This document shows positions 1-53,473 of a stretch of 55,720 nucleotides of DNA, piece by piece (the first letter of the stretch is position 1; every line of letters starts with the position of its first letter). A model generated the notes under the pieces. It ran no database searches and had not been told where the DNA came from. It saw only the letters and a program-made list of their open reading frames with translations. Source of the stretch: an uncultured Kiloniellales bacterium (GTDB lineage Bacteria; Pseudomonadota; Alphaproteobacteria; Kiloniellales; JAKSDN01); NCBI GenBank assembly GCA_947258885.1, contig CAMYKD010000035.1, forward strand, positions 1 to 55,720. Direction: 5' to 3'. The position numbers were made by a program, and so were the translations under genes.

Positions 1-1120
1 CCTGCTGCTGCATCTGCACGAAGGTCGGGCTTGCGCCGAACAAGACTGCACCGCTCTTCTCGACAAGCTTCCACAACGTCTCGCCGTCAGGATGATTCGG
101 ATTGCCGTCGTACAACAGGGGAATTACCCCGAGTAGCAAGGAACTGACCAGGAAATTCCACATCATCCAGCCGAGCGTCGTATAAAAGAACAGGCAGTCT
201 CCCGGCTTCATGTTCATGTGCAATCCGGTGAGCTTCATCTGCTCGAGGAGAATGCCACCGTGGCTGTGCACGATGGCTTTTGGCAGTCCCGTCGTTCCGG
301 ACGAAAAAAGAATCCACAGAGGATGAGCAAACGGCAGCTGGGCGAATTGGATTTCCTCGTCGGGGCCTTCAAGCAACTCGTCCCAGATCAACATGCCATC
401 AACAGGAACATCATAATTGGCGGGCTCGAGCCTGGGCACGAGTAGCAGATTCTCGACGGACGGCAAGCTGGCTGCCAGCTCGCGGATTTCGGCGCGCCGC
501 GAATAGGGTTTGCCGCCGTAGCGATATCCATCGATACAGATAAGAAATCTTGGCTCCAGTTGTGCAAATCGATCCAGAACGCTGGGGGTCCCGAGATCCG
601 GCGAACAGGCCGTCCAGATGCCGCCCGCGCTGACCGTCGCCAGCATCGCGACGACAGCCTCCGGGCAATTGGTGAGATAGGCGGCAACCCTGTCACCGGG
701 CTCGAGGCCGGCGTCCCGCAACCACTTGGCCATGATCCTCACCTGGGCAGCAAGTTCCTGCCAGCTCAATTCAGCCAGATCACTTTCTTCGTTGGCGAAT
801 AGCAGCGCGGTTCCGTCATCCCGGCAACGCCGAAAAATATGCTCCGCATAATTCAGTCGTGCGCCCGGAAACCATTCCGCACCGGGCATGGTCCGCTTGC
901 CCAGGACACGCTCGTAAGGAGTTGATGACTGAACATCGAAGTACTCCCAGATGGCAGTCCAAAACTCGTCAAGCTGGCCGATGGACCACCGTCGAAGCTG
1001 CTCGTAGTCGTCAAACTGGATTGTCTTGGTCCGGAAAAGCCAGCGGCGAAAGGCTGTTATGTTCGCCTCCCCCAGCCACTCTTCCGTTGGCTTCCATAAT
1101 AACTGCCCTTCTTTCACCAT
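1..1120 (-). CDS. acsA: Acetoacetyl-CoA synthetase (AMP-forming), 3' end beyond window
   Basis: Activates acetoacetate to acetoacetyl-CoA with ATP and CoA in the cytoplasm (ANL adenylate-forming superfamily). Reading the minus strand from the ATG at 1118-1120 gives an open frame of 373 codons that runs off the left edge; the family is about 650 residues, so the C-terminal part is missing. The N-terminus (VKEGQLLWKPTEEW) is typical of acetoacetyl-CoA synthetases rather than acetyl-CoA synthetases, and the P-loop signature SSGTTGLPK sits at about residues 273-281, followed by AIVHSHGG. A GGAGGT ribosome binding site lies about 10 bases before the ATG. It is divergent from the PEP-synthase-like and carboxyltransferase operon, which fits a role in trapping a carboxylation product as a CoA thioester. 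Family identification is strong; the symbol is by family convention. Confidence 0.93.
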   Translation of the reverse strand, partial: MVKEGQLLWKPTEEWLGEANITAFRRWLFRTKTIQFDDYEQLRRWSIGQLDEFWTAIWEYFDVQSSTPYERVLGKRTMPGAEWFPGARLNYAEHIFRRCRDDGTALLFANEESDLAELSWQELAAQVRIMAKWLRDAGLEPGDRVAAYLTNCPEAVVAMLATVSAGGIWTACSPDLGTPSVLDRFAQLEPRFLICIDGYRYGGKPYSRRAEIRELAASLPSVENLLLVPRLEPANYDVPVDGMLIWDELLEGPDEEIQFAQLPFAHPLWILFSSGTTGLPKAIVHSHGGILLEQMKLTGLHMNMKPGDCLFFYTTLGWMMWNFLVSSLLLGVIPLLYDGNPNHPDGETLWKLVEKSGAVLFGASPTFVQMQQQ

Positions 1121-1332
1121 GAATTATCAGACCTCCGTCCCGTCATCCTGCTCATGTGCCCGGCCCGTGTGAATATGTCGATCGCATAAACTATCATACT
1201 GATCAGGCTCCGATTGGTAAGTCTTGCATTCGGCCCCATGAGATTTTCATCAGGACACTCATCGTCTAAGAAGATGGAAATCGATTATCATGGGAGGCAC
1301 GATTGCATGGCCTTGTAGATGGAGTTAGCGGT
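1121..1332. promoter_or_regulatory. Divergent promoter region of the AACS and phosphotransferase/carboxyltransferase operons
   Basis: This 212-base spacer separates two divergently read genes and must hold both promoters. A GGAGGT lies before the minus-strand gene, and a GGAG eight bases before the plus-strand ATG at 1333. No clear operator dyad was recognised. The AT-richer centre, roughly 1170-1270, is the likely promoter core. No regulator gene is adjacent within the window. Confidence 0.5.
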
Positions 1333-3156
1333 ATGAGTAGCAAAAATAACGACAGTCCTTTCCCCCTTGCCTCGGAAATCGAAAGCGTACCGGGCACGGA
1401 GGGCTGGGAAGACATGTACCCGTACTTCACCCGCAGACAGCCGGGCGACGACAACATATTCTGGTTTTACAACTCCATGCATTTCCCGGAGCCCATGCCG
1501 GCGTTTGACGCACTCACGGCAGAGATACCCTATACGGCCATGGGCGCAAACACGACGCGTATGTTTGCCTTTCCGGCAACACTGGGCGTGGAGCACCGAA
1601 TCATCAACGGCCGTGTCTATATCACGGCGCATGCCGTCTCCGATCCGGAGGAAATAGCGCGCCGGACGGAAGTATTCAACAAGCGTGCTTCTCATTACTA
1701 CCAGAACTGGGACGAGCTTTTCGAGAAATGGAAGGAGAAAATGCTCGCGCTCATCAATGAGATCGACGGCGTCGAGATTCCCGAATTGCCAGAATTCGAC
1801 GACGAAGAGTCGGTCATGGCTGGCCGTGGAATCAGTCAGAATCACTACGTCCGGGAGCGCTACCATCGTTGCATAGACCTGTTCTCGATCATGTGGCATC
1901 ACCATTTCGAATTCCTGATGCTCGGATACGGTGCCTACCTGGTATTCTTCCAGTTCTGCAAGAAGGCTTTTCCCGAGATCGCCGATCAGACGGTCGCTCG
2001 TATGGTCGCCGGTATAGATATGCTGATGTTTCAGGCCGATGACGCCCTGCGCTCATTGGCGAAGCGGGCGGTCGATCTCGGCATCGCGGATGTATTCGTA
2101 GACGATGTCGATCCACAGATTATCCTGAAGAGTGTCGAGTCCACAGGTGACAAAGGCAAGAAATGGCTGGCAGCATTCGAAGAATTCCGTGATCCCCTGT
2201 TCAACATCACGGTGGGTGATGGCTTCTATCATTACCATCGCAGCTGGAACGACGATCTGACAGTTCCGTTCTCGGCCCTGTCGCATTATGTCGCCCGGAT
2301 CGCGGATGGGGAAAACCTGACTCGGCAGACCGAGGAATTGCGCGAAGAACGCAAGCGTATCGCCGACGAGTACCGGGAATTGCTTGACAACGAAGAAGAG
2401 CGTGGCGCGTTCGATCAGATGCTCGGACTCTGTCACCGCGTATTCCCGTACGTCGAAGACCACAAGTTCTTCTGTGAGCACTGGTTCACGACGCGTTTCT
2501 ACGAAAAGATACGAGAGTTCGGCGATCTGCTGGTGCGTTGTAAGATTCTGAACGACAGGGAAGACATATTTCAGCTTCAGCATGCAGAAGTCGATCACGC
2601 GCTGGCGGACGCCATGCTCGCCTGGGCAGCCGGTTCAGAGCCGCTCGGCGCCGCTCACTGGCAACCGATCGTGGACAAGCGACGCAAGATCCTCGAGAAA
2701 TTTTCGGATTGGGAGGCGCCCATTGCGATCGGGCCGATGCCGGAACACCTCGAGGATCCGGCCGTGCAGATGCTGTGGGGGATTACGTCCGAAACGCTCG
2801 AATCCTGGTCGCGCAGTCCTGACCAGGTCAGTGAAAACGAAATCCATGGCTTTGCAGCCTCGCCCGGCGTAGTGGAAGGCATTGCACGGGTGCTCAAAAA
2901 CGTCAACGAAATCGGCCAGGTCCGCGAAGGAGATATCCTGGTTTCTCCCGTGACCACCCCCAGCTGGGGACCGGTATTTCCCAAGATCAAGGCGGCCGTA
3001 TCGGACATAGGTGGCACGATGTCGCATGCTGCGATCGTCGCGCGCGAATACGGAATGCCGGCGGTGGTCGGAACCGGACGCGCAACCAAACGGATTTCGA
3101 CCGGCCAGAGGCTGCGTGTGGACGGCGACAATGGCGTCGTCACGATCCTCGATTGA
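1333..3156 (+). CDS. PEP-synthase-like phosphohistidine subunit (phenylphosphate synthase alpha-type)
   Basis: A 607-residue protein whose C-terminus is the swivelling phosphohistidine domain of PEP-utilising enzymes (GGTMSHAAIVAREYG, catalytic His near residue 565) and which ends right after that domain. True PEP synthase continues with a PEP/pyruvate-binding barrel, absent here. The roughly 530-residue N-terminal part is not a known catalytic domain that I recognise. Size and layout match the 70-kDa subunit of phenylphosphate synthase, which carries the phosphohistidine and binds the phosphoryl acceptor. The next gene supplies the ATP-binding half. The ATG at 1333 (GGAG eight bases upstream) is preferred over a TTG at 1303. 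Predicted role: transfer of a phosphoryl group from ATP, via His, to an alcohol, phenol or enol. The acceptor is inferred only from neighbours. Confidence 0.85.
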   Translation: MSSKNNDSPFPLASEIESVPGTEGWEDMYPYFTRRQPGDDNIFWFYNSMHFPEPMPAFDALTAEIPYTAMGANTTRMFAFPATLGVEHRIINGRVYITAHAVSDPEEIARRTEVFNKRASHYYQNWDELFEKWKEKMLALINEIDGVEIPELPEFDDEESVMAGRGISQNHYVRERYHRCIDLFSIMWHHHFEFLMLGYGAYLVFFQFCKKAFPEIADQTVARMVAGIDMLMFQADDALRSLAKRAVDLGIADVFVDDVDPQIILKSVESTGDKGKKWLAAFEEFRDPLFNITVGDGFYHYHRSWNDDLTVPFSALSHYVARIADGENLTRQTEELREERKRIADEYRELLDNEEERGAFDQMLGLCHRVFPYVEDHKFFCEHWFTTRFYEKIREFGDLLVRCKILNDREDIFQLQHAEVDHALADAMLAWAAGSEPLGAAHWQPIVDKRRKILEKFSDWEAPIAIGPMPEHLEDPAVQMLWGITSETLESWSRSPDQVSENEIHGFAASPGVVEGIARVLKNVNEIGQVREGDILVSPVTTPSWGPVFPKIKAAVSDIGGTMSHAAIVAREYGMPAVVGTGRATKRISTGQRLRVDGDNGVVTILD

Positions 3157-3168
3157 CGCAGGTGGTCG

Positions 3169-4245
3169 ATGTCACACGGTAGCCGATCATTTATTAGCCA
3201 CTTTGCCGACCTGACACTGGGCGATCGCCACGCAGTGGGCGGGAAAAGTGCCAGCCTGGGAGAATTGACACGAGCCGGTATAGCAGTTCCACCGGGGTTC
3301 GTCGTCACGACGTCGGCGTTCGAAGCATTTCTGCGAGTTTCCGACGCGGCCGGGGGAATCCGTAAAGAAGTCGCCGCCCTCGATCCAGGCGATGCGACCC
3401 GGGTTGCCGCGGCAAGTGAGCGCATACGAAAGCAGGTCCGGGACATGCCGATACCTGCGGCCATCGCAAAAGAAATCCGCAGCAGTTACCAGTCGCTCGC
3501 GGTAGATGCTGGCAGCATGCCGGTCGCCGTGCGTTCGAGCGCAACCTGCGAGGATAGCGAGACCGCCAGTTTTGCCGGATTGCAGGACACCTATCTTTGG
3601 GTTCTCGGCGAAGAGCAGCTCCTGGATCAGGTCCGAGCATGCTGGGCAAGCCTGTACAACAGCGAATCGATCACCTATCGCCAGCGACTCGATTTACCCG
3701 AAGACCAGATAGCGATGGCAGTCGTGGTACAGGAAATGGTGGACGCCGTCTGTGCTGGCGTCATGTTCACACGCAGCCCGACGACCGGAGACAAATCCGT
3801 CATCGTGATCGAAGCAAGCTGGGGGCTCGGGTCGAGCCTCGTAAGCGGCGAAGTCACGCCGGACCGCTTTGTCGTCAACAAGGTAACCGGCGAGATAAAC
3901 AGGCGGGACATTTCTGAAAAAGCCTTGGAAACCGTTCCCAATCCGACGAGCGGAGGCGTGCGCGAGCGCCCCGTCCGGGAAGAACGTCGGCACGCGCCTT
4001 GCCTGGCTGATGAATCGATCAGCCAGCTCTGGCGAATTGCAAGAAAAGTCGAAAAACACTATGGCTCACCACAGGACATCGAGTGGGCCATCCCCCGAGG
4101 CCGGGGACAACAAGAGCAGATTGTCTATCTGTTACAGAGCCGGCCCGAGACGGTCTGGGCGGGCAGGGAGAAGGAACCCGCCGCGAAGCCGACGCCAAAA
4201 GCTTTCGATCACGTGCTGAATCTGATGGGAACCAGAAAGAGCTGA
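3169..4245 (+). CDS. PEP-synthase N-terminal-type ATP-binding subunit (phenylphosphate synthase beta-type)
   Basis: A 358-residue protein matching only the ATP-grasp-like nucleotide-binding half of PEP synthase/PPDK. It has GGKSASLGEL at 24-33, the conserved arginine motif VRSSATCEDS at 121-130, FAGLQDTYL after it, and QDIEWAI followed by LLQSRPETVW near the C-terminus. It has no phosphohistidine domain; that is encoded by the gene 12 bases upstream, so the two form a split enzyme. The about 40-kDa size equals the beta subunit of phenylphosphate synthase, which together with the alpha subunit converts substrate plus ATP to phosphorylated substrate, AMP and phosphate. It is translated from the same message as its upstream neighbour. 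Family is certain; substrate unknown. Confidence 0.87.
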   Translation: MSHGSRSFISHFADLTLGDRHAVGGKSASLGELTRAGIAVPPGFVVTTSAFEAFLRVSDAAGGIRKEVAALDPGDATRVAAASERIRKQVRDMPIPAAIAKEIRSSYQSLAVDAGSMPVAVRSSATCEDSETASFAGLQDTYLWVLGEEQLLDQVRACWASLYNSESITYRQRLDLPEDQIAMAVVVQEMVDAVCAGVMFTRSPTTGDKSVIVIEASWGLGSSLVSGEVTPDRFVVNKVTGEINRRDISEKALETVPNPTSGGVRERPVREERRHAPCLADESISQLWRIARKVEKHYGSPQDIEWAIPRGRGQQEQIVYLLQSRPETVWAGREKEPAAKPTPKAFDHVLNLMGTRKS

Positions 4246-4247
4246 AT

Positions 4248-4433
4248 ATGCAACTGACCCACGAGGACGTAAGCATGATTCTGAAGCTCCTGGACGAGTC
4301 TCCTTACGATGAACTGAAGATCGAGACCGAAGGATTCAGCCTGACCTTGAAATGCAAGTCCGACATGCGCCGGTTGCGGCAGCCCAAACGATCGGGCCGC
4401 CGAGAAAAGATAACGGGAACACGGCATGGCTGA
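4248..4433 (+). CDS. 61-residue protein resembling the N-terminal segment of biotin carboxyl carrier protein
   Basis: Begins two bases after the preceding stop and overlaps the carboxyltransferase start by eight bases, so it is almost certainly translated as part of the operon. Residues 1-36 (LTHEDVSMILKLLDESPYDE, then LKIETEGFSLTLK) resemble the AccB N-terminal region, which in acetyl-CoA carboxylase contacts biotin carboxylase. The rest is a short basic tail rich in Arg and Lys. There is no biotinyl domain and no AMKM-type biotin lysine, so it cannot itself carry biotin. It may be an adaptor recruiting a biotin carboxylase or carrier encoded elsewhere, or a truncated carrier. The similarity is by eye over a short stretch. 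Confidence 0.6.
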   Translation: MQLTHEDVSMILKLLDESPYDELKIETEGFSLTLKCKSDMRRLRQPKRSGRREKITGTRHG

Positions 4434-5607
4434 TATCGATTTGATCGACGTATCCATTCGCGATGGCAATCAGAGTCTATGGGGCGCAACCGGATTGAAT
4501 ACGGCCCAGATCCTCGCAATAGCGCCGGTCATGGAACGTGTCGGGTACCGTGCCATCGATTTCACGTCCAGCACTCACATGGGCATCGCGGTACGGACTT
4601 ACCAGGAAGATCCGTGGCTGATGATTCGATTGATGCGTAAGGCCGTGCCGAATACACCGCTGCAGTTCATCGGCACGGGGTTTCGCTTCATCTCCTGGGA
4701 AACCGCAGCCCAGGATTTCATGAGGCTGGTTTACCAGCGACTCATCGCCAATGGTATTTCACGTTTCATCGTCCTGGACCCCATGCACGATGTCGACGCG
4801 CTGCTCGCAACCGCCAAGATGATCAAACAGGAAGGCGGATCCGAAGTCATGGCTGCGCTGACCTACACACTTAGCGACGTCCACGACGATGCGTTTTATG
4901 CATCGGTGGCTGCGCGCGCAGCAGGGTCGCCGGATGTGGATCTCGGCTATCTCAAGGATCCGTCCGGGCTTTTGACACCGGAACGTGCGAAGACGCTGAT
5001 ACCGGCGATTCAGAAAGAGATGAACGGCAAAGACCTCGAACTCCACTCTCACTGTACGATCGGGCTTGCGCCGCTCTCGTACATGGCCGCCGCCGAACTC
5101 GGTATCGATGGCGTGCACACCGGTGCTGGCGCGCTGGGCGACGGCACGTCGCTGCCGTCCGCAATCCGCACGGTCGCGAATCTCCGCGAAGCCGGACACA
5201 ACGTTGATATCGACGATAAAGCACTTGCGGAGGTTTGCGACTACTTTTCCCGCATGGCCGAGGCCGAAGGTCTGCCGCGCGGCGCGCCCCGTGAGTATGA
5301 TGCCGCGTTCCTGCGCCATCAGATTCCGGGCGGCGTGATGACGACGCTCAAGCGCCAGCTGTCCGAGATCGACATGGAAGACCGCCTGGCCGAGCTGATC
5401 CGTGAGTCCGAGCGCGTCCGGGCGGAGCTCACCGGCAAGCTGGGACGAGACCCGACCTCCCAGGAGCTGGCGCCGGCCCTGGGCAAGGTGTTGGCCCAGT
5501 CCGCCCTCGGCCTTGCCCAGGACGTCGACCTCGCGCCCTACCGCCTCGGCCGCTTTGCCGAGGGCAGGTTGCTGACCGGCGTCTACGGCGTCGGCTCGAT
5601 CTCCTGA
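4426..5607 (+). CDS. Biotin-dependent carboxyltransferase, PycB/oxaloacetate decarboxylase alpha-type, with atypical C-terminus
   Basis: 393 residues with a DRE-TIM carboxyltransferase barrel: D-x3-RDGNQ at residues 8-16, catalytic lysine in LKDPSGLL (K177), metal-binding LHSHCT (H207, H209), and PGGVM at 301-305. Family members exchange carboxyl groups between carboxybiotin and a keto acid or related acceptor. After about residue 330 the usual GYPP-VTP-Q segment is replaced by an unrelated 60-residue tail containing GRDPTSQELAP, and GC content rises there. No biotinyl domain is fused. The start at 4426 overlaps the small upstream gene. With the phosphotransferase pair and the divergent acetoacetyl-CoA synthetase, the inferred role is carboxylation of an activated ketone. 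The alternative is an ordinary pyruvate or oxaloacetate enzyme. Confidence 0.85.
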   Translation: MADIDLIDVSIRDGNQSLWGATGLNTAQILAIAPVMERVGYRAIDFTSSTHMGIAVRTYQEDPWLMIRLMRKAVPNTPLQFIGTGFRFISWETAAQDFMRLVYQRLIANGISRFIVLDPMHDVDALLATAKMIKQEGGSEVMAALTYTLSDVHDDAFYASVAARAAGSPDVDLGYLKDPSGLLTPERAKTLIPAIQKEMNGKDLELHSHCTIGLAPLSYMAAAELGIDGVHTGAGALGDGTSLPSAIRTVANLREAGHNVDIDDKALAEVCDYFSRMAEAEGLPRGAPREYDAAFLRHQIPGGVMTTLKRQLSEIDMEDRLAELIRESERVRAELTGKLGRDPTSQELAPALGKVLAQSALGLAQDVDLAPYRLGRFAEGRLLTGVYGVGSIS

Positions 5608-5665
5608 AGCACGGTAGGCAGCAGAGCATCCGCCCCGGTACGGCAGGGTCGGTCGGTATGCCCGG

Positions 5666-6550
5666 CTACAGTTCCTCGAACATTTCAGCGGCGGCTTGCA
5701 GCTCCTTGTCGAGCGGCGACATCAGCTGTGCCAATCTTTGGATGTCCTCGGGAGCGGGCTTGTCTCCCTCCGCCGGCGATTTGACGAGCGGCAGGAACTC
5801 GTCCCAAAGCCGCTCCACCCTTCTCAATTGCGCCCTGATTTCCGGGTTTGGCGCGGGCAAAAGCTTGCTCTCCGGGTCGCCTTCGATGAGCCCGGCCAGG
5901 CTGCGGGAGAATTCGGCGGAGGTGTCGGACAGATCCTTCCTGTTCCGTTCGACATTGTGACCGGCGGCAATCAGGAGGAATTGCTTGCTCATCTTCTGTA
6001 GCCGCCAGGTCTGGTCCTCGGCTCGCTCTGCGGCCACCTCGAGCATGGAACGGAGCTGTTTCTCGTTGGCATGCTGGTGAAGGGCCGCCGCCATTTCGTG
6101 AGTGGCTTCGAATAGGGGTTCGTTCAGGTTTCCGATGGTCGCCACCTGTTCGGTCGAAAAGTCTCCCGCGTCGAGACCGCTGCGAACAACCGCGTCGAAC
6201 TGGGGCCACAACGCCTCGACTTCAGCGAGCAACTTCAGCACATTCGGCTCCGTTCTCGGCGACAGCCCCATCGCGCTATCGCCGTCGCGAAGAGCCTTGA
6301 ACACGCGGCCGAAGGCTTCCCGGGACTTGCTGAGAGTGCCGAGGTTTTGCGCCTTGTCGATGCCCAGGACGACAAGCAGCGATGCCGTACTCATCCTCTG
6401 GGTCTGCACGGACAGCTGTTCGGCGAAGTGGCTGGCGCGCTTCAAATCCGAGGCGGCTGCGGCAGGATCCGCAAAGCTTGCGATTGCCAAGGCGAGGAGG
6501 GCGCCGACGGCGGCGACGGAGCAGGGGAACGGGCGCGCTTGCCTTGACAT
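5666..6550 (-). CDS. Secreted protein with two PilJ-type (NarX-like N-terminal) domains
   Basis: 294 residues with a cleavable signal peptide (hydrophobic VAAVGALLALAIASFA, cleavage near AAAA). Two repeats follow, each starting with the helix motif typical of the PilJ/type IV pili sensing domain: VQTQRMSTASLLVVLG near residue 50 and TWRLQKMSKQFLLIAAG near 180. Such domains usually form the periplasmic sensor of NarX/NarQ kinases or PilJ chemoreceptors, but here there is no membrane segment after them and no kinase or methyl-accepting part, so this is a free periplasmic two-domain protein. A stretch of low GC and a direct-repeat copy lie upstream. A FixJ-like regulator without a kinase is nearby, but a link is only speculation. 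Confidence 0.8.
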   Translation of the reverse strand: MSRQARPFPCSVAAVGALLALAIASFADPAAAASDLKRASHFAEQLSVQTQRMSTASLLVVLGIDKAQNLGTLSKSREAFGRVFKALRDGDSAMGLSPRTEPNVLKLLAEVEALWPQFDAVVRSGLDAGDFSTEQVATIGNLNEPLFEATHEMAAALHQHANEKQLRSMLEVAAERAEDQTWRLQKMSKQFLLIAAGHNVERNRKDLSDTSAEFSRSLAGLIEGDPESKLLPAPNPEIRAQLRRVERLWDEFLPLVKSPAEGDKPAPEDIQRLAQLMSPLDKELQAAAEMFEEL

Positions 6551-6614
6551 TGTCTTGCTTCCTTTTTCTGAATTATATTACAGCCTGTATAATAACAGAC
6601 CCCGACCGGTTGCG

Positions 6615-6655
6615 AAATTCGGTCGATTGTATAGTAATACTAGGGATTTCCCGTA
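6615..6655. repeat. Direct repeat copy A (about 41 bp, imperfect)
   Basis: Aligned without gaps with 7101-7141 (32 of 41 identical by hand count). Conserved blocks are AAATTCGG-CGATTG and CTAGGGATTTCCC. Copy B covers the last codons of the FixJ-like gene and its trailer; copy A read on the minus strand ends in a similar GNP-stop. The pair flanks the small cysteine-rich gene. Confidence 0.65.
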
Positions 6656-6748
6656 TTAGAGGTGTCGCGTTACTTTGACCGCTGACACGGTCGGAGACCC
6701 CGGTGCCAATATCGGTACGAATCGAGGGGGCCTCAGGCTGAAGCGCGT

Positions 6749-6949
6749 TCAGCAGCCGCCCTTGCACTGGTCGGAGCACTCCGGAGCGTTGCCGGTCGTG
6801 ACTTCCAGGTCGGCCTTGCCGACCCTGAGACAGCCGGAGCTCTTGAACTGAACACAGACCGTAATGCCGTTGTCCTTGCAAATCCGGCCGATTTCCCCCT
6901 TCGGACCGGAGTCCTTGAACTTCACGATATCCCCGACCGCTACGGCCAT
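6749..6949 (-). CDS. Small cysteine-rich protein, SH3-like beta fold possible
   Basis: 66 residues starting MAVAVGDIVKFKDSG. I chose the ATG at 6949 over 6967 because a GGGGGA ribosome binding site lies about ten bases before it. The VGDIVKFKDSGPKGEIGRI opening resembles small KOW/SH3-type barrels. Six cysteines are present, including a C-terminal CSDQCKGGC, which suggests metal binding or disulfides. No signal peptide or membrane segment. I do not recognise the family with certainty. It sits alone between imperfect direct repeats, between the PilJ-domain gene and the FixJ-like gene, all on the minus strand. Confidence 0.7.
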   Translation of the reverse strand: MAVAVGDIVKFKDSGPKGEIGRICKDNGITVCVQFKSSGCLRVGKADLEVTTGNAPECSDQCKGGC

Positions 6950-7100
6950 ATCGAATTCTCCCCCCAAACCAGCGTCGCCGGACCGTGCCCTTGACCGTTA
7001 TCGGCTCGGGGCGGAGGTCCCAAGGTCCGATCCCTTCGCTGCACACGACCGGACCTCACGCAATGTAGGAGGTCATTATAGGCTGATTGCCAAGCCCTGA

Positions 7101-7141
7101 AAATTCGGGCGATTGCCGAGTGGGTCTAGGGATTTCCCTTA
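7101..7141. repeat. Direct repeat copy B (overlaps the end of the FixJ-like gene)
   Basis: Partner of 6615-6655, 486 bases away in the same orientation. The CTAGGGATTTCCCTTA part contains the stop codon and last codons of the FixJ-like gene, which suggests that copy A is a remnant of a duplicated gene end. Confidence 0.65.
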
Positions 7142-7749
7142 CTGATCGCGCAACTCCCGGCGATCCGCACCAATTCCGCGAGAGATTCCGCTTGCATCTT
7201 TACCATGACGTGTGAGCGGTGAACCTCTACGGTCTTGGGACTGATGTCCAGCGCGCGGGCGACTTCCTTATTGGACTTGCCCAGGATCACCAAGTCCATG
7301 ACCTGACGCTCGCGCGGGGTCAAGCTCTTCAGACGGGCTATCGTCCTTTCGCGCGCAGACCGCTCCTGGCGTAGGCGGGCGTCCTCCAAGATGGACAACT
7401 GGATGCGTTCGAGCATCATCTGTTCGTCGAACGGCTTCTCGACGAAATCTATTGCGCCCCGCTTCATGGAGCGCACGGCGGTCGGCACGTCGGCGTATCC
7501 GCTGACGACGATAATCGGAAGCGTCACTTCCTCGGCCGCCAGCTTGCTTTGCAGCTCGATCCCGCTCATGCCCGGCATCCGCACGTCGGTTACGAGGCAT
7601 CCTGGCCGGCTCGCATCGTAGGCGTTCAAGAACTCCTGGGCCGATGCAAAAGTCTCGATCTTGAGGCCGACCGACTCCACGAGCCACCTCAATGTATCGC
7701 GTACTCCCGAATCGTCATCCACGACGAAAACTGTGGGTTCAGCCGACAA
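7126..7749 (-). CDS. FixJ-family two-component response regulator
   Basis: Receiver plus LuxR-type helix-turn-helix transcription factor. Starting at the TTG at 7749 it is 207 residues, the usual FixJ length: acidic pocket VVDDD at 9-13, phospho-acceptor D55 in LVTDVRMPGMSG, VVSGYAD, the conserved Lys in EKPFDEQ, and a C-terminal LTPRERQVMDLVILGKSNKE recognition region with KTVEVHRSHVM. The TTG is chosen because AAGGAG lies ten bases before it, and because translation from the upstream ATG at 7917 would add a 56-residue basic tail foreign to the family. No histidine kinase is nearby, so its partner must be elsewhere. Confidence 0.9.
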   Translation of the reverse strand: MSAEPTVFVVDDDSGVRDTLRWLVESVGLKIETFASAQEFLNAYDASRPGCLVTDVRMPGMSGIELQSKLAAEEVTLPIIVVSGYADVPTAVRSMKRGAIDFVEKPFDEQMMLERIQLSILEDARLRQERSARERTIARLKSLTPRERQVMDLVILGKSNKEVARALDISPKTVEVHRSHVMVKMQAESLAELVRIAGSCAISKGNP

Positions 7750-8062
7750 GCTCGGAATTCTCCTTGAGAGCGGGGTTGTCTTGCGCCGCTGGCGTCTTCT
7801 TTTTCCCGATTCCTCCAACCCGCAGCGGACCGCCCTGGACGAGCGTTCCACGGGTCGACGGCTCCATGCCCATGCGTTTGGCTCTGACCATGACAGGGCA
7901 TCGAATATCACATCCAAGCGCCCCTTAGCAAAGCCTAGTCGGGCCGCCCGGATGCTGTAGTCGAACTGTTGTTAGGGAGCCGTTAACGCTGCCAAGGTGT
8001 CAGGCGCGGCGAGCGGCCCCGCGCCGGAAGGCGCAGGGTCGGCCGGGGGGCGTCCGGTCGGT

Positions 8063-8569
8063 TCATGCGGCGGATTGCCGGGGGAGTGCTGTCTGCTTGT
8101 GGGTGACCGGGACGAGCGCGCCGATCAACATGTCGATCTCTGCGCCGTTGCTGGCGAGGGGACAGACCAGCCGGTCGACCGTAAGGTACCATTTCTTGGA
8201 AACCGGCATGGGGGTGCTGCGGTAGACCGGCTGCGTCGCGGCCATCGCGCGGGCATAATCGGCGTTGAGTTCGGCCGCCTGTTGGGGGAAAGCCTCCTCG
8301 ACGGTCCGGCCGGTGATCTCGAAGTCGAACAGATCGACGATCCCCGTGCCGGCCAGACGATAGCGGAACAGGGGCCCTGGCAGCGGTCTTTCCACATCGA
8401 CCATGAAGAGCCACGGCAGGAGCGTATGAATGGCCGCCGGATCGACATGCTGGCGGCCCGGCAGGCCGTTCTCCGCCGGCAGAGTCCGCCAATAGTCGTA
8501 GAAGGCCCGCATGGTCGGGTGGGTCAGTTCCGTTTCCAAGTCCGCGCGCCTGTCTTCGAGGTCCAGCAT
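8063..8569 (-). CDS. PAS_5-family PAS domain protein
   Basis: 168 residues without a signal peptide. The pattern FYDYWRTLPAENGLPGRQHV, then DPAAIHTLLPWLFMVDV, FRYRLAGTGIVDLFDFEITG and a final YLTVDRLVCPLA is that of the single-domain PAS_5 proteins abundant in Rhodospirillales, where they are thought to act as small ligand- or redox-sensing modules; no output domain is attached. A GGGGGGA ribosome binding site precedes the ATG. It is transcribed in the same direction as the FixJ-like gene but over 300 bases away. Family assignment is good, function unknown. Confidence 0.82.
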   Translation of the reverse strand: MLDLEDRRADLETELTHPTMRAFYDYWRTLPAENGLPGRQHVDPAAIHTLLPWLFMVDVERPLPGPLFRYRLAGTGIVDLFDFEITGRTVEEAFPQQAAELNADYARAMAATQPVYRSTPMPVSKKWYLTVDRLVCPLASNGAEIDMLIGALVPVTHKQTALPRQSAA

Positions 8570-8910
8570 GTCGGATCCCCCCGTACAAATGCCACAGTGG
8601 TTACGAGAACCTTAATTCTGCCACCCGGCGACGGGTCCCGGGTGGGCCATTCGTGTGACTTGGCTGTGTCCTTGTTGTGATAAACCGTTGGCGCGAGACA
8701 AGTTTCTTTAACATTGGGCCGCGCGCGGCGCCAAGGCGAGAGGCCTTCGAAGGCGACTGAAGAAATGAGAATGAAATCAGTAGAATGCCAGTACAGCGTC
8801 GGTCTCTGGCTCACAGAGATCTCGGCACATCACACCAAGCGATAGATTTGAGCGGCGACCGCAGAAGGAATTAACCTTGAGCCGCCGCCCTCGATTACCA
8901 GTATGGAGAC
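8570..8910. other. Gene-free interval between PAS_5 gene and ABC transporter operon
   Basis: No convincing gene. A GC-rich inverted repeat (CCACCCGG...CCGGGTGG) lies near 8620-8646, upstream of the PAS_5 gene. The remainder shows no recognisable regulatory motif. A 26-codon frame at 8765 lacks a ribosome binding site. Confidence 0.5.
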
Positions 8911-9678
8911 TCAAAGAATTTGGCTCAGAAACTCCTGGGTGCGGGGATCCTTGGCCTCGGCGAAGAAGCTGGCCGGCGGGCCGTGCTCGACGATCACGCC
9001 GCGGTCGGTGAAGTAGATGTGGTTCGCCAGTTCGCGGGCAAAACCCATCTCGTGGGTCACCAGGATGCAGGTCATGCCGTCTTCGGCCAGCTCCTGGATG
9101 GTGACCAGGACTTCCTTGACCGTCTCGGGGTCGAGCGCGGCGGTCACCTCGTCGAACAGCATGACATCGGGGTTCATGGCCAGCGAGCGGGCGATCGCCA
9201 CGCGCTGCTGCTGTCCGCCCGAAAGCTCGCCCGGATAGCTCGTCTCCTTGCCCTCCAGGCGCACCTTCTTGATCAGCCGGTAGGCGCGCTGCTCGACGTC
9301 CGCCTTGTCCTGCTTGAGCACGTGGATCGGCGCCATCATGACATTCTCGAGCGCCGTCTTGTGGGGGAAGAGGTTGTACTGCTGGAAGACCATGCCAACC
9401 TTCTTGCGCAGCTCGAGCTTGTCCAGGTCCGGGTCGTTGACCTCGATGCCCTCCACCTTGATCGAGCCTTTCTGGATGTCGTTGAGGGCGTTGATGCAAC
9501 GAATCAGGGTCGACTTGCCGGATCCGGACGGCCCGATGATGCAGATCACCTCACCCTTCATGACGTCGAAGGAAATGCCCTTAAGTACCTCCAGGTCACC
9601 AAAGGACTTGTGCACGTCCTTGATGCCGACCATCGGCCGATCGGGGGTCCAGGGGCCGTTCTTGGGTGCTTCGCTCAT
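8911..9678 (-). CDS. Polar amino acid ABC transporter ATP-binding protein (AapP/GlnQ type)
   Basis: 255 residues powering uptake of the substrate delivered by the operon's binding protein. Walker A GPSGSGKST follows CIIG near residue 53, then the Q-loop in MVFQQYNLFPH, the signature LSGGQQQR, Walker B VMLFDEVTAALD, and the switch histidine in LVTHEMG, all intact. Highest similarity by pattern is to the GlnQ/AapP/HisP group. Last gene of a four-gene minus-strand operon (binding protein, permease, permease, ATPase); AAGGGG eight bases before the ATG. Confidence 0.95.
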   Translation of the reverse strand: MSEAPKNGPWTPDRPMVGIKDVHKSFGDLEVLKGISFDVMKGEVICIIGPSGSGKSTLIRCINALNDIQKGSIKVEGIEVNDPDLDKLELRKKVGMVFQQYNLFPHKTALENVMMAPIHVLKQDKADVEQRAYRLIKKVRLEGKETSYPGELSGGQQQRVAIARSLAMNPDVMLFDEVTAALDPETVKEVLVTIQELAEDGMTCILVTHEMGFARELANHIYFTDRGVIVEHGPPASFFAEAKDPRTQEFLSQIL

Positions 9679-9694
9679 CTCCGGTGCCCCTTCT

Positions 9695-10618
9695 TCAAAT
9701 CTTCACCGCGAACTTGCGCTCGAGATGAATGGTCCAGCGCGCGATCGGGTAGATGTAGACGAAGAAGACGACCAGCACGAAGGTATAGAAGGGGGCGACG
9801 AGCTCGGGTTTGTCGCCGAGCGCGTTCAGCGCCTCGCGGGTCGACTTCATCATCTCCTGGACCTCCAGGATCGAGCACAGCGGCGTTGCCATGGTGAGAA
9901 TGGCGTACCAGTTCATCCACGGCGGGATCATGCGCTTGAAGCATTGGGGCAGGATGATCATCCACATCGTCTGACGGCGCGAGAAGGCCAGGCTTTCCGC
10001 GGATTCCCACTGGCCTATGGGGATCGAGAGCACGGCGCCGCGCACGATCTCGGCGATGTTGGCCATGATCGGCAGGCTCAGCGCGAAGGTCGCCTTGGTC
10101 CAGCCGGGGATATCGATCTCGCTGCCGCCGATCTTGACGCGGAACGGAAGCAGCAACATGAAACTGAACAGCAGCACCAGCCACGGCGAGTTGCGGAAGA
10201 ACTGGGTGACCAGCCAGGCGAGCTTGCGCAGCGGATCGAGGACCGAGACCTGCGCGAGGCCGAGCCCGACGCCCATCACGGTGCCCAGCAGCATGGCGAA
10301 GAAGCTGATCAGCAGGTTCAGCACGAAGCCTTCCATGATGAAGGGCAGCCACTGCGGAAAGGCCGTCCAGAAGGTAACCGCGCCGGCGCCGGCCTGGGCC
10401 TGGGCGGCGCCGATGCTGAGCACTAGGGCGATCAAGGCGAGTCCCACCATCCAGGCCGGGATGATGAGCCTCGGCACGCCGGCGATGGTCGGCCACGTCC
10501 AGGCCTCACGCGAGCTCTGGAATACGGGTTTCAGGACCGGAAGGTCGGTCGCCGGACAGGCACCCGTGTCGAGCCCAGGAATCGCTCGCTTGAAACGGGT
10601 CTTTCGATGGCTCCGCAT
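9695..10618 (-). CDS. Amino acid ABC transporter permease (AapM/HisM type)
   Basis: 307-residue inner-membrane permease with an extended N-terminus, a first membrane helix near residue 50, and several helices carrying the permease loop motif EIVRGAVLSIPIGQWESAES before LAFSRRQTMW. The length and the large loop after helix 1 resemble the longer permeases of the Aap/Bzt group more than minimal HisM. Its start is one base from the stop of the preceding permease, so translation is likely coupled. Forms the heterodimeric channel with the 10620-11363 product. Confidence 0.92.
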   Translation of the reverse strand: MRSHRKTRFKRAIPGLDTGACPATDLPVLKPVFQSSREAWTWPTIAGVPRLIIPAWMVGLALIALVLSIGAAQAQAGAGAVTFWTAFPQWLPFIMEGFVLNLLISFFAMLLGTVMGVGLGLAQVSVLDPLRKLAWLVTQFFRNSPWLVLLFSFMLLLPFRVKIGGSEIDIPGWTKATFALSLPIMANIAEIVRGAVLSIPIGQWESAESLAFSRRQTMWMIILPQCFKRMIPPWMNWYAILTMATPLCSILEVQEMMKSTREALNALGDKPELVAPFYTFVLVVFFVYIYPIARWTIHLERKFAVKI

Positions 10619-48913: not shown

Positions 48914-49522
48914 CTAGGGAAGGAGCGTGTGGAGAGGTCTCAATCTTGGATAGTGAAGCCCGGAATGCCGGATCACTTTCGGCGAGATGACCTTGCTGAA
49001 AAAGAACGGCTGATAACTGAAGAATACCTCGGCGATGATGATGTTCTGGTTCTCTTCCATCGCAAATCCGGCAGGCAAGTTGGCCGACGCCCCGATTGTG
49101 GTGCCCACTGCACTCGTGAACGTTCCTGTGCCGCCGCCGCTCATCTGCCAACTGATCGTCGGGGACACCGGCAGGGTATCGTCCGTGCTCACCGAGGTGA
49201 TGAAAACGATCCCGTCCACGCCCAGGTCGAAAGGACGCATGGAGTACTCGGCGGCCGCGAAGACCTGGTTGATGTCGGCGGTTACGGCGTGCTTGGCCCG
49301 GCTCACCAAATCGGAGCTGCTGATGGCGACGCGGCTGAGCTTCTGGTTCAGCAGTACATAGCGTCCGACTTCCATCGAGCCGAGCAGGAGTAGTACGAGT
49401 ATGGGTACGACCAAGGCGAAGTCCACGATGGCCACACCCTCGCTGCCGCGAATGAACCGGCGCAGCCTGCTGGCCGGACCGCAACCGAAGTTTCCGCAGT
49501 TCTGCAAACCGTGCTTCAACAT
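48914..49522 (-). CDS. TadE-like pilus assembly protein
   Basis: 202 residues. N-terminal helix with the TadE pattern: GSEGVAIVDFALVVPILVLL followed by GSMEVGRYVLLNQK, then SSSDLVSRAKHAVT and a C-terminal FSYQPFFFSKVISPKVIRHS. Minor membrane component of the Tad pilus or secretion apparatus. Overlaps the preceding TadE gene by seven bases (translational coupling). C-terminal PRLRPLHTLLP ends the gene. Confidence 0.88.
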   Translation of the reverse strand: MLKHGLQNCGNFGCGPASRLRRFIRGSEGVAIVDFALVVPILVLLLLGSMEVGRYVLLNQKLSRVAISSSDLVSRAKHAVTADINQVFAAAEYSMRPFDLGVDGIVFITSVSTDDTLPVSPTISWQMSGGGTGTFTSAVGTTIGASANLPAGFAMEENQNIIIAEVFFSYQPFFFSKVISPKVIRHSGLHYPRLRPLHTLLP

Positions 49523-50112
49523 GCCGGGTCCCCGTCGTCAAAGGGCTCGTTGCGCACGACCACCGAGGCGGCCAGCGGGAATTTGCCGTCTTTCCCCATC
49601 ATCGGGGCGAGCAGCCCCGTCATCAGCTGCAGCTCATAGCTGACGGTGTACAGCACGACCTCGCCGCCGTGCCCGAGCCCGGACTTGCCCATATCCGGGT
49701 CCCACACGGTATTGCAGTTGATATCGGTGAAGGGCTCGCCGGAGTCGTGAGAGCCGTTGCCGTTGGTATCGGTATAGGGCTCCGGTTCGCCGACCGAGGT
49801 GAAGTTCGGATAGACAAGGGTGGTGATGTTGCTGGCATCGATCTCGACCACGCCGGCGCCATTCTGGTTGACGACCTGGACGATGTAGTCCTCGCGAGTC
49901 CCCGAGGGTGGCGGCGCACCGGTAAGGCCGAAACGCGAGGCTTCGCGCAGCCCGCCTTCGAGCAGACTGTCCGCGAAGAAAATCATGCCGACTTCCATGG
50001 TTCCGAAGAGGAGCAGTATGAGGACGGGAGCGACAAAGGCGAACTCCAGTACTGTCGATCCGTCGGTACGGCGTCTCAGGCGGCCGAGCCTATGGCGAAG
50101 AGCGTCGATCAT
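49516..50112 (-). CDS. TadE-like pilus assembly protein with calcium-like insertion
   Basis: 198 residues from ATG 50112, overlapping the vWA gene stop (ATGA). N-terminal TadE helix: GSTVLEFAFVAPVLILLLFG then EVGMIFFADSLLEGGLREAS. A later segment (DTNGNGSHDSGEPFTDINCN) resembles an EF-hand-like or dockerin-like metal loop, unusual for TadE. Part of the vWA-TadE-TadE operon. Confidence 0.87.
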   Translation of the reverse strand: MIDALRHRLGRLRRRTDGSTVLEFAFVAPVLILLLFGTMEVGMIFFADSLLEGGLREASRFGLTGAPPPSGTREDYIVQVVNQNGAGVVEIDASNITTLVYPNFTSVGEPEPYTDTNGNGSHDSGEPFTDINCNTVWDPDMGKSGLGHGGEVVLYTVSYELQLMTGLLAPMMGKDGKFPLAASVVVRNEPFDDGDPAC

Positions 50113-51539
50113 TTTGAAATCCTCAAGGCTGACAGATCGTCTGCGATTTCCTTGAACACCTTCTCCAAGGCGGCGCCATCCGGCGCGAAGTGGTAGAAGG
50201 GCGCATTCGGCTCGGTGGCGACCTCCTTCAGCAGCGCCTGCAGCGGTCCGGAGCTGTGGAAGAACTGGATGACGTAGATCTTGATGCCCTCGGCCTTGGC
50301 GCTCGCCGCGACCGCGCGCAGGCGATCGTCCATGCCGGCGGCGCCGGCGCCCGAACCGGTCCCGAAATAGTCGTTGTAGCCGTCGTTGTCGCCGCCCGTT
50401 TGTTCGCCGTCGGTGAGCAACACGATGGCCCGCTCGTGAAGGCCCTTGGGGAAGGGATTGGCGTCGTCGAACGGCTCGCCCGGCGAGACCACGCGCCAGG
50501 CCCAGGCCAGGCCCTGGGAAATGTTGGTGTGCCCCCTTGGGTTGGTCAGATCGTCGATCGCGCTCTCGATGATCGGCCTCTGGTCGTTCAGACGCGTAAT
50601 GCCGTGGCTTAGACACCGGTTGTACTGATCGGAACTGTCTTCCCAAGCCAGCCAATCGGTACTGTTGGAGGTGGTGACGGGACCGAGCAGATGGTCGGCG
50701 AGACCATCCGGGGCGAGAGGTGGCCTGTAACGGGCGAAGACGCAACCTTCCCAATTGGCGTCCGGGTTGTTCAGAAAGGGCACCGGTGTGTTGGGCGTGT
50801 GATAGATCACGGACTGGGGATTGCCGGTCCAGGGGTTGGTGAAGCTGGATACCGCCGTGGTGGTGGTCAGGGAATTGTCGTAGGTGGTCGTTCCGTTCAA
50901 CCACACGTTGACGGCGCCGTTCCATGGTACCAGTCCGATCAAGAGCGTGCTCTTGGCCGATTTGTTGCCATAGAGAATGTCGACCAGGGTGTGCGCCGCC
51001 GTCCGGGCCGAGGCGATACGCGTGCTGCCGCTGCCGTCGGACCAGGCCATCGAGCCGGACATGTCCATGGACAGCACGACGTCCATGCTGATGGTCTGGC
51101 GCGTCACCTCCGTCGCCGTGCCGATGTTCAGGCTCTGGTAACCGAAGAGCCGCATGAACGTGGTGTTCATCGCCGCCGATGCGGTTATGTTGATGATCTC
51201 GTCGTCGGCACCGCTCAAGGCCACCGGGTTCAACGTCACCGTTGCGCCCATGTAGCCGGGCGGAAAGTTGGCCTGGAAATACTTCTGTATTTCCGTCTGC
51301 AAGTTCGCCGGGTCCACCACATGGGCACCGGCCAGCACCGCCGCGTCCAGGGCATCGCCGAGCCGGGCCTTGACCAGGTAGCCCCGGGCGGCATCGGTCC
51401 CGAGGCCGATGAACCCCAACAGCGGTATCAGCACCGCCGCTGTGAGCGGGAGCGACGCCCCGCCCTCGTCCGTCAGGAACCGGTGGCATTTGGCCCTTAG
51501 TCCATCCGCAAGGCGCGGTGGATCATCGAACGGTCGCAT
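50109..51539 (-). CDS. TadG-like protein with von Willebrand A domain (copy 1)
   Basis: 476 residues. N-terminal membrane helix of TadG/TadE type (GGASLPLTAAVLIPLLGFIG then DAARGYLVKARLGDALDAAV), then a vWA domain with metal site DMSGSM (DxSxS) near residue 157, and GEPFDDANPFPKGLHERAIV, LLTDGEQTGGD. Likely an envelope-anchored adhesive or assembly subunit of the Tad system. AAGGAG precedes the start at 51539. First gene of the vWA-TadE-TadE operon. Very similar (about two-thirds identity by eye) to the 52049-53473 gene. Confidence 0.9.
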   Translation of the reverse strand: MRPFDDPPRLADGLRAKCHRFLTDEGGASLPLTAAVLIPLLGFIGLGTDAARGYLVKARLGDALDAAVLAGAHVVDPANLQTEIQKYFQANFPPGYMGATVTLNPVALSGADDEIINITASAAMNTTFMRLFGYQSLNIGTATEVTRQTISMDVVLSMDMSGSMAWSDGSGSTRIASARTAAHTLVDILYGNKSAKSTLLIGLVPWNGAVNVWLNGTTTYDNSLTTTTAVSSFTNPWTGNPQSVIYHTPNTPVPFLNNPDANWEGCVFARYRPPLAPDGLADHLLGPVTTSNSTDWLAWEDSSDQYNRCLSHGITRLNDQRPIIESAIDDLTNPRGHTNISQGLAWAWRVVSPGEPFDDANPFPKGLHERAIVLLTDGEQTGGDNDGYNDYFGTGSGAGAAGMDDRLRAVAASAKAEGIKIYVIQFFHSSGPLQALLKEVATEPNAPFYHFAPDGAALEKVFKEIADDLSALRISK

Positions 51540-52048
51540 GCCCAGGTCTCCTTATCAGCGATCGTATTTCGAAGATCGATTGATCATATTAATGTCTGGT
51601 TGATAACACGTGAACAAATCGGAAATTTATTGTTATAATATTGTTGGAATTGTAATATATATTGACTATTGCGTTTGTGTTTACCTGAATTGCGGTGTGA
51701 GTTCTGTGCCTGCACAGGATCCGTTCCACGGCGGTCGTTGTATTGCCGAGCGACTCGAAACGTCGAGGGGGGGCGCTGTCCGTCGTGATGGTTTACGTTC
51801 CCCAACGATCGGCATTATCTCGCCGGCCGCCGACGGCCTGACTACGGGGTTGCCATGGACACCGTCACCGATGGCGCCACCGCGCGCCGCCGTTGGCGGA
51901 TGGGCGCATGCCGTCTTCCGGCGTTTGCCAGGCCGCTTCGATCGCGCGACGGTTGGCCCGATCCCGGTGTGCGTGGAACCGCTACCGATCCTCGACCCGG
52001 CCGCGTACAGCCTGGAATTTCATGGCGGGCCGGCCGGCGGAGCGGTCG
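51540..52048. other. Interval between the two TadG-like genes
   Basis: Bases 51560-51690 are very AT-rich (promoter island for the operon on the left). 51700-52048 is GC-rich with no credible gene on either strand; no TadE gene follows copy 2, unlike copy 1. Possibly a duplication remnant. Confidence 0.5.
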
Positions 52049-53473
52049 TCATTGGGAAACCCGCAATTCCGACAAGGCGCCGGCGATCTCCTTGAACACG
52101 CCGTTCAAGGCGTCGCCGTCGGCTGCGAAATAGTAGTAGGGCGCCCGCGGCTCGCTGGCGACCTCCTGCAATAGCGCCTGCAGCGGTCCCGAATCGTGGT
52201 AGAACTGGATCACGTAGATCTTGGTGCCCTGGGCCTTGGCGCTCGCCGCGACCGCGCGCAGGCGGTCGTCCATGCCGTTGGCGCCGGCGTTCGAACCGGT
52301 CCCGAAGACGGCATTGTAGCCGTCGTGGTCGCCACCGAATTGCTCGCCGTCGGTGAGCAGGACGATGGCCCGTTCGTGAAGGCCCTGGGGGAAGGGGTCT
52401 GCATCGTCGAACGGCTCGCCCGGCGAGACCACGCGCCAGGCCCAGGCCAGGCCCTGGGCGATGTCGGTGACCCCATCCGGGCTGGTCAACTCGTCGACCG
52501 CGCTTTCGATGATCGACCTCTGGTTGGTCAAAGGCGTGATGCCGTGGGTCAGACAATCCCCATAGTCGATACCGCTGTCCATCCAGGCCAGCCATTCGGT
52601 ACCGTCGACCGTGGTCGCCGGGCCGAGCAGATGATCGGCGTCGTCATCGTTGGTGGCGCTGTCGCTGTAGCGGGCGAAGACGCATCCGTTCCAACCGGCG
52701 GGCGGAGTCCTCAATAAGGGCACAGGCGAGTTGGCCGCGAGATAGGTCTCGGACTGCGGGTTGCCGGTCGAGGGGTCGGTGAAGACCGGCGTCGGCACCG
52801 TCGTGACCAGTCCGGGATCGTAGACGGTTCCGTTCAGGGTGACGTTGACCGCGCCGTTCCACGGCACCAGTCCGATGAGAAGCCCGTCCTTGCTCGCCTC
52901 GGTGCCAAACAGGATGTCGAGCAGGCTATGCGCCGCCGTTCGGGCCGCGGCGATACGCGTGCTGCCGGCGCCGTCGGAATCGTCCATCGACCTGGACAGG
53001 TCGATCGACAGCGCGACGTCCATGTTGATAGTCCGGCGTGTGACCTGGGTTGCCGATCCGATCCTCAAGGTGTTGAAACCAAACAGCCGCATGAAAGTGG
53101 TATCGAGATCCGCCGAGGCGCTTACGTTGATCACCTCTTCGCTGGGGCTAACCGTCGCCGGGTTCAATGTCACTGTTGCGCCCATGTAGCCGGGCGGAAA
53201 GTTGGCGTTGAAGTACTTGCGCATCTCCGATTGCAGGTTCGTCAGGTCGCTCACATGGGCGCCGGCCAGCACCGCGGCGTCCAGGGCGTCGCCGAGCCGG
53301 GCCTTGACCAGGTAGCCCCGGGCGGCATCGGTCCCGAGGCCGATGAACCCCAGCACCGGAATGACGATCGCGGCGACCAGCGGGAGCGACGTCCCGCTCT
53401 CATCCGCCAAGAAGCGGCGACACGTGACCTTCAATCCGCACCCCCAGAGTCCGAGATCCGCCAACGAATTCAT
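52049..53473 (-). CDS. TadG-like protein with von Willebrand A domain (copy 2)
   Basis: 474 residues, the same architecture as the neighbour: GTSLPLVAAIVIPVLGFIGL membrane helix, DLSRSM metal site at the same position, GEPFDDADPFPQGLHERAIV and LLTDGEQFGGD. Tandem duplicate; the metal site keeps DxSxS, with Arg in place of Gly. TTGGGAG precedes the ATG, and an AT-rich island (53505-53635) lies upstream. Not followed by TadE genes, so it is a single-gene unit. Confidence 0.9.
   Translation of the reverse strand: MNSLADLGLWGCGLKVTCRRFLADESGTSLPLVAAIVIPVLGFIGLGTDAARGYLVKARLGDALDAAVLAGAHVSDLTNLQSEMRKYFNANFPPGYMGATVTLNPATVSPSEEVINVSASADLDTTFMRLFGFNTLRIGSATQVTRRTINMDVALSIDLSRSMDDSDGAGSTRIAAARTAAHSLLDILFGTEASKDGLLIGLVPWNGAVNVTLNGTVYDPGLVTTVPTPVFTDPSTGNPQSETYLAANSPVPLLRTPPAGWNGCVFARYSDSATNDDDADHLLGPATTVDGTEWLAWMDSGIDYGDCLTHGITPLTNQRSIIESAVDELTSPDGVTDIAQGLAWAWRVVSPGEPFDDADPFPQGLHERAIVLLTDGEQFGGDHDGYNAVFGTGSNAGANGMDDRLRAVAASAKAQGTKIYVIQFYHDSGPLQALLQEVASEPRAPYYYFAADGDALNGVFKEIAGALSELRVSQ

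Follow-up and report, generated by a model that had tools for sequence, protein, structure and literature searches.

The closest described relative of the locus analysed here is the Hpe pathway of Rhodococcus rhodochrous GD02 (hpeHICBADEF), which comprises the kinase HpeHI, the biotin-dependent carboxylase HpeCBA, the phosphatase HpeD, the CoA synthetase HpeE and the hydrolase HpeF (PMC9618137). According to the same report, assays with purified enzymes showed that HpeHI phosphorylates 4-hydroxyacetophenone and acetovanillone on the ring hydroxyl, that HpeCBA acts only on the phosphorylated ketones and that HpeD then takes the phosphate off; homology is the basis of the roles given to HpeE and HpeF, and the steps of ligation and cleavage were proposed (PMC9618137). 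HpeH is described as similar to rifampin phosphotransferase (RPH), and a change of its swivel-domain histidine as abolishing the activity (PMC12167813). The Acv pathway of Sphingobium lignivorans SYK-6 is homologous to the Hpe pathway, and the pathway of Novosphingobium aromaticivorans is reported to start with a single-component kinase, MarK, and to be otherwise very similar (PMC13101465).

We analysed positions 1-5607 of a 55,720-nt stretch of DNA from an uncultured Kiloniellales bacterium (hereafter the window), which is contig C35 of its genome assembly and starts at contig base 1. A preliminary description of this segment had proposed a ketone-carboxylating system consisting of a two-subunit kinase resembling phosphoenolpyruvate (PEP) synthase, a carboxyltransferase, a stub resembling a biotin carboxyl carrier protein (BCCP) and an acetoacetyl-CoA synthetase. 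Open reading frames, Pfam searches and alignments confirmed that all the named elements are real. Comparison with the described systems makes it likely that they form an Hpe/Acv-type cluster, partly degraded and probably acquired by horizontal transfer, for the catabolism of 4-hydroxyphenyl methyl ketones. On this reading the pathway is of a known kind and damaged here, and only the lack of a biotin carboxylase gene sets it mildly apart.

The kinase pair and its relation to described systems

The gene for the HpeH-like kinase subunit H (1333-3156, plus strand) encodes 607 residues from an ATG at 1333, in a frame already open from a TTG at 1303, with an RPH-like substrate-binding domain and a phosphohistidine swivel domain. 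Its sole Pfam match was PF00391 (3.5e-24) and the candidate catalytic residue, His565, lies within the motif GGTMSH. It is followed by the gene for the HpeI-like ATP-grasp subunit I (3169-4245, plus strand; 358 residues), whose sole Pfam match was PF01326 (5.8e-107) and whose best sequence match in the PDB was 9GOJ, which is HpeI of GD02. Both subunits are full length and make up a two-component dikinase with the swivel-domain histidine present; judged from the frames, the kinase genes are the only intact part of the cluster.

As in Hpe, the two-subunit dikinase is accompanied by a carboxyltransferase, the start of a BCCP and an acetoacetate-type CoA ligase, and the order is H, I, C. Unlike in Hpe, the window has no biotin carboxylase or phosphatase gene, the BCCP and the carboxyltransferase are truncated, and the ligase gene is divergent from the operon. 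H is 47% identical to its counterpart in the GD02-type cluster of Rhodococcus JS3073 (L141), and the window kinase falls in a separate clade. L141 encodes an I subunit nearly identical to GD02 HpeI and also carries the BCCP, biotin carboxylase, carboxyltransferase, phosphatase, ligase and amidohydrolase genes. The window kinase also differs from MarK in having two subunits.

The ligase gene (2-1120, minus strand) comprises the first 373 residues of an HpeE-like, acetoacetate-CoA-ligase-like protein and is cut by the contig end. It matched NF002937 with 488.9 bits across 4-371, under the cut-off of 639 as a partial gene, and showed 55% identity to the ligase of a Pseudomonas putida plasmid cluster (L026). 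A search of the rest of the assembly returned no matching second half; a separate full-length ligase homologue, 43% identical to that of L026, occurs on contig C5 of the same genome. A promoter and terminator scan of 1050-1450 gave one match each, close to the shuffled expectation.

No Pfam match to a PEP/pyruvate barrel was found in H or I, and PEP-synthase family matches to H were mostly C-terminal; with only PF00391 in H and PF01326 in I, the pair lacks the barrel that PEP synthase and pyruvate phosphate dikinase have. The preliminary description had also pointed to the two-subunit layout of phenylphosphate synthase, and this comparison was borne out, as PpsAB on the Azoarcus KH32C plasmid (L142) is a two-subunit dikinase of the same layout with an H counterpart 45% identical to that of the window. 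Azoarcus PpsAB, in contrast to the window pair, precedes ppcBDAG together with UbiD/UbiX genes and has no biotin enzyme. Pfam detected no UbiD-type ppcABDG neighbours in 1-5607, and their absence, together with the H and I trees, ruled out an identity as phenylphosphate synthase.

The predicted model of H (mean predicted local distance difference test score 80.7, from an 18-row alignment) showed the RPH fold of substrate-binding and swivel domains, superposing on RPH with Z 18.8 and a root-mean-square deviation of 4.2 over 474 residues. The next structure matches outside RPH stayed at Z 6.9 or below, many of them covering the swivel domain only, and a PDB sequence search with H likewise gave, apart from RPH, swivel-domain matches only. 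RPH differs from the window pair in being a single chain, with 17% identity and a different substrate.

Relatives of the cluster and the likely substrate

A scan of genome contigs that used a carboxyltransferase alignment as query yielded 349 confirmed loci, and the following counts refer to the best 80 of these, in which gene presence was scored by tblastn with score cut-offs. The carboxyltransferase occurred in all 80, the BCCP in 78 (with the biotin-site motif in 77 of them), the biotin carboxylase in 77, the phosphatase in 72, the ligase in 25 and the amidohydrolase in 8. A kinase was found in 75, either of the two-subunit type (44) or encoded by a UPF0261 gene (31), and neither type in the remaining 5. 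The three loci scored without biotin carboxylase were L051 and two, L061 and L064, whose contig ends just before the carboxyltransferase; among the eight without phosphatase, L078, L088 and L093 are cut short, which is not obviously the case for L055, L082, L092, L096 and L097. A full cluster on a Rhizobium leguminosarum plasmid comprises an IclR-type regulator, H, I, BCCP, biotin carboxylase, carboxyltransferase, a haloacid dehalogenase (HAD) phosphatase, an acetoacetate-CoA ligase and an amidohydrolase.

Along the carboxyltransferase tree the kinase type (H plus I, or UPF0261/Tm-1-like) changes at least four times, two of these changes being forced by the starred branches, and alternating types were seen in L051-L130 and L026-L029. 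On the basis of PDB 9mpy, the UPF0261 genes at the kinase position would be of MarK type. Phenol kinases of different, unrelated types thus seem to work with a single carboxylase family.

The relatives include Sphingomonas bisphenolicum, Sphingobium bisphenolivorans and Croceicoccus bisphenolivorans. Six records (L027, L066, L067, L068, L070 and L071) span different genera yet share one identical carboxyltransferase protein; several bear names that refer to bisphenol degradation and one is on plasmid pBAR1, and the identity points to very recent spread. L096, a contig titled as a Klebsiella pneumoniae metagenome-assembled genome (MAG), holds a complete H-I-BCCP-biotin carboxylase-carboxyltransferase cluster and groups with the gammaproteobacterial MAG L092; its bin may be mislabelled.

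The closest relative of the window among the best 80 of the 349 loci was L051 (MAG Gammaproteobacteria 4_1_Oct_SF_Bin22), which as far as searched is unpublished. Identity reached 79% for H, 78% for the carboxyltransferase and 65% for I, and both clusters have no biotin carboxylase gene. L051 differs from the window in possessing a BCCP with its biotin site, a full carboxyltransferase and a phosphatase; no ligase gene was found in its 12.3 kb. Near the cluster, at 8342-9724 on the minus strand, L051 encodes a ring-cleavage dioxygenase that combines LigB and LigA domains in a single chain, which fits an aromatic substrate. The two loci were sisters with a Shimodaira-Hasegawa-like approximate likelihood ratio test (SH-aLRT) value of 100 in the trees of H (49 rows), I (51 rows) and the carboxyltransferase (88 rows).

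As read from homology and gene order, in intact relatives I would bind ATP and phosphorylate the histidine on H that corresponds to His565 in the window, and H would hand the phosphate to the phenolic hydroxyl of a substrate of the 4-hydroxyacetophenone type. BCCP, biotin carboxylase and carboxyltransferase would then add CO2 to the acetyl group, the HAD phosphatase would strip the phosphate after carboxylation and the ligase would form the beta-ketoacyl-CoA for cleavage. Successive action of a kinase pair, a biotin-dependent carboxyltransferase and a beta-keto-acid CoA ligase on a methyl ketone, as the preliminary description had imagined it, is thus that of the published Hpe/Acv systems, except that the carboxylase of the window is not intact.

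What did not stand was the substrate. The pair had been proposed to phosphorylate the enol of an aliphatic ketone such as acetone or butanone, the carboxyltransferase to carboxylate the phosphoenol and the ligase to trap acetoacetate. The adjacency of a phosphotransfer pair, a carboxyltransferase and an acetoacetate-type ligase would agree with this scheme, but the characterised homologues phosphorylate a phenolic hydroxyl and carboxylate the phosphorylated ketone only, as reported in PMC9618137. The dedicated phosphatase gene, present in 72 of the 80 relatives, would be needless had carboxylation released the phosphate; its presence implies that the phosphate persists beyond carboxylation, which argues against the ketone-enol mechanism. 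Relatives also occur in strains named for the degradation of bisphenols, for which a bisphenol A route with 4-hydroxyacetophenone as its main intermediate is described (PMC9862853), and the dioxygenase gene of L051 is of the LigAB ring-cleavage type. We therefore rejected ketone-enol phosphorylation, given the chemistry of the homologues and the frequency of the phosphatase gene, and consider the acetone scheme hardly credible. Neighbours that point to another substrate, the outcome by which the preliminary description had said its proposal would be refuted, were indeed seen in other genomes. A literature search turned up no paper on an acetone system of this kind. Acetone carboxylase AcxABC is defined by hydantoinase-like subunits, for which Pfam gave no match among the proteins encoded in 1-5607, the part of the genome that was searched for them.

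Truncated carboxylase genes and the missing biotin carboxylase

The BCCP remnant (4248-4433, plus strand) encodes 61 residues with no Pfam match and no biotinyl domain. Over its initial 94 nt it shares 74% identity with the beginning of the intact L051 BCCP gene, and beyond that point no alignment is possible, which agrees with its earlier naming as a BCCP-like stub. A frameshift was considered on account of an Ala/Pro-rich second frame but is not claimed.

The carboxyltransferase frame extends from 4426 to 5607 (393 residues), and its likeness to relatives stops at 5430, the barrel part (4426-5430, plus strand) being 78% identical to L051 over residues 1-335. About 155 C-terminal residues have been lost, and the PYC_OADA domain covers 43 residues in the window against 119 in L051. 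In 79 of the 80 loci the frame measures 489-531 residues, some of these lengths including a few extra upstream residues from frame extension; that of L093 has 326 and reaches the locus end. After a 34-bp junction segment that matches neither flank (5431-5464, plus strand) and has no second occurrence in its own genome, the only one searched, the frame runs on into the 3' end of a flavin adenine dinucleotide (FAD)-dependent oxidoreductase gene (5465-5607, plus strand), which supplies its last approximately 47 residues. From 5465 onwards the DNA matches two same-genus genomes, G002 (C224, L031) at 95.6% identity (5465-10219, 4,755 bases) and G001 (C1, L030) at 94.7% (5465-6269, 808 bases), in which the junction position lies inside a 407-residue frame and a 403-residue FAD-dependent oxidoreductase gene (PF01266), respectively. 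A biotin-dependent carboxyltransferase had been correctly recognised; its fusion to an oxidoreductase tail had been overlooked, and the enzyme is not intact here.

An unbroken copy of the oxidoreductase gene that the window interrupts is carried on contig C7 of this genome (G000:C7:1-2000, L032). The body of this copy is about 94% identical to G001 and its last part less so, and C7 continues into diverged copies of genes found at 6749-7476 of the window. This arrangement may mark the edge of an insertion or of a recombined segment, or the bin may combine two strains.

Between the window and L051, non-synonymous divergence (dN) was 0.14 for H, 0.26 for I and 0.17 for the carboxyltransferase up to residue 336, against a synonymous divergence (dS) of 1.4-1.6, near saturation; these values indicate that all three genes have long been under purifying selection. 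In plain, mutually dependent counts with six outgroups, the window carboxyltransferase carried 18-32 private changes against 14-19 in L051, with no excess in H (30-36 against 29-39) or I (18-28 against 22-33), which would weakly suggest a recent relaxation of the window carboxyltransferase only.

The window contains no biotin carboxylase gene, as the preliminary description had stated, and a dedicated one was not found elsewhere in the genome, where six stretches matched and none was HpeA-like. The best match (51%) is accC-like and lies beside accB-like and, as we presume from inspection by eye, aroQ-like frames; the other five were a 676-residue frame, a pyruvate carboxylase frame, two pieces on C168 and one weak match. 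In L051 the end of the BCCP gene at 4698 is followed directly by the carboxyltransferase gene from 4703, with no biotin carboxylase gene in the cluster, and the L051 genome (completeness not stated) yielded one full-length biotin carboxylase, accC-like and beside accB- and aroQ-like frames, plus one weak match. Since L051 too lacks the gene and offers only that accC-like full-length match, loss of the biotin carboxylase gene probably preceded the divergence of the two lineages. The window copy would then have lost the BCCP biotinyl domain, the carboxyltransferase end and the phosphatase. None of the literature matches listed carried a title on an hpe operon devoid of biotin carboxylase, and the mildly new point, as judged from the assembled sequences, is that the otherwise intact closest relative L051 shares this lack.

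It is very unlikely that the window encodes a working system in which the truncated carboxyltransferase uses AccB and AccC of acetyl-CoA carboxylase in trans. The genome does contain accB and accC, L051 combines an intact BCCP and carboxyltransferase with a single full-length accC-like gene, and the window carboxyltransferase keeps D13, K177, H207 and H209, which we take to be its metal site. The BCCP without biotinyl domain, the missing C-terminal domain of an enzyme whose frame has at least 489 residues in 79 of 80 relatives, the excess of private changes in the carboxyltransferase alone and the failure of the L051 phosphatase to find a match in the genome, in a search run without a positive control, all speak against it. 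A broader version is doubtful but less so: the window/L051 lineage would possess a carboxylase for phosphorylated hydroxyaryl ketones that has no dedicated biotin carboxylase and whose carrier and carboxyltransferase are charged by AccC, and the window would be a later stage keeping only the kinase, possibly for trapping or detoxifying phenols. As assembled, the window cluster probably phosphorylates a phenol at most, without carboxylation.

Origin of the cluster and implications for the family

Of the Hpe/Acv set, the window has no full carboxyltransferase, no BCCP biotin site and no dedicated biotin carboxylase. Several observations weigh against the reading preferred here. The phosphatase search that came back empty had no positive control. 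The kinase clade of the window leaves out GD02-type HpeHI, Azoarcus PpsAB and the CreHI-type pair, and the GD02 HpeI and JS3073 rows also fall outside it, in a comparison made without the SYK-6 AcvAB sequence; the CreHI label of L143 is our own assumption, based on the P450, ferredoxin and aldehyde dehydrogenase genes beside it. The carboxyltransferase clade likewise leaves out the GD02 type, as well as the Rhizobium cluster. Because both clades exclude the characterised GD02 type, the substrate could be another phenol, and the inference reaches no further than a hydroxyaryl methyl ketone. The trees were quick searches, with no bootstrap and with long branches among the reference rows, and the H model is weakest at 540-574, the stretch holding His565. 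A published count, made by other criteria, has kinase and carboxylase genes clustered in just 52 of 836 cases (PMC13101465). Finally, the junction and the deletion may be assembly errors.

This last point belongs to a wider explanation, in which the 5.4-kb cluster derives from another organism and was joined at 5430-5465 by mis-assembly or mis-binning, the BCCP deletion perhaps being an assembly error as well; the identity of the pathway would be unchanged. G+C content is 57.7% in 1-5464 and 66.1% in the rest, and sequence matches to H and the carboxyltransferase did not reveal the cluster in two same-genus genomes, so that either a recent import or a mis-join fits. H occurred near full length in one of 57 other genomes (G015, 45%); some match to H was present in 56 of 58 genomes, the own one included, confined to the swivel region apart from the near-full-length ones. 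Carboxyltransferase matches of 40% were found in G045 and G049, the others being pyruvate-carboxylase-like, shorter or due to the oxidoreductase tail. The ligase cut at the contig end with no matching second half in the assembly, the 34 bp that match neither flank and the second, whole oxidoreductase copy on C7 also favour a mis-join, but horizontal transfer would equally give a low-GC insert of 5.4 kb, the H, I and carboxyltransferase frames are open and stop-free, and the absence of biotin carboxylase is common to the independently assembled L051. We consider mis-assembly somewhat unlikely.

Elsewhere in the window, a 41-nt imperfect direct repeat (78%) at 6615-6655 and 7101-7141, 486 bases apart, flanks a small gene, and two genes at 49516-53473 (minus strand) encode TadE and Tad pilus-assembly domains.

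With the locus assigned to the Hpe/Acv kind, the supposed new acetone-fixing route becomes a published pathway for hydroxyphenyl ketones derived from lignin or bisphenol. The comparison also outlines a large two-subunit kinase clade distinct from that of GD02 HpeHI, which appears to exchange with UPF0261-type kinase genes before one carboxylase family. If AccC does charge the carboxylase of the window/L051 lineage, the breakdown of aromatic ketones would share this subunit with fatty-acid synthesis, and such sharing of biotin carboxylase between pathways is a testable idea for L051-like bacteria.

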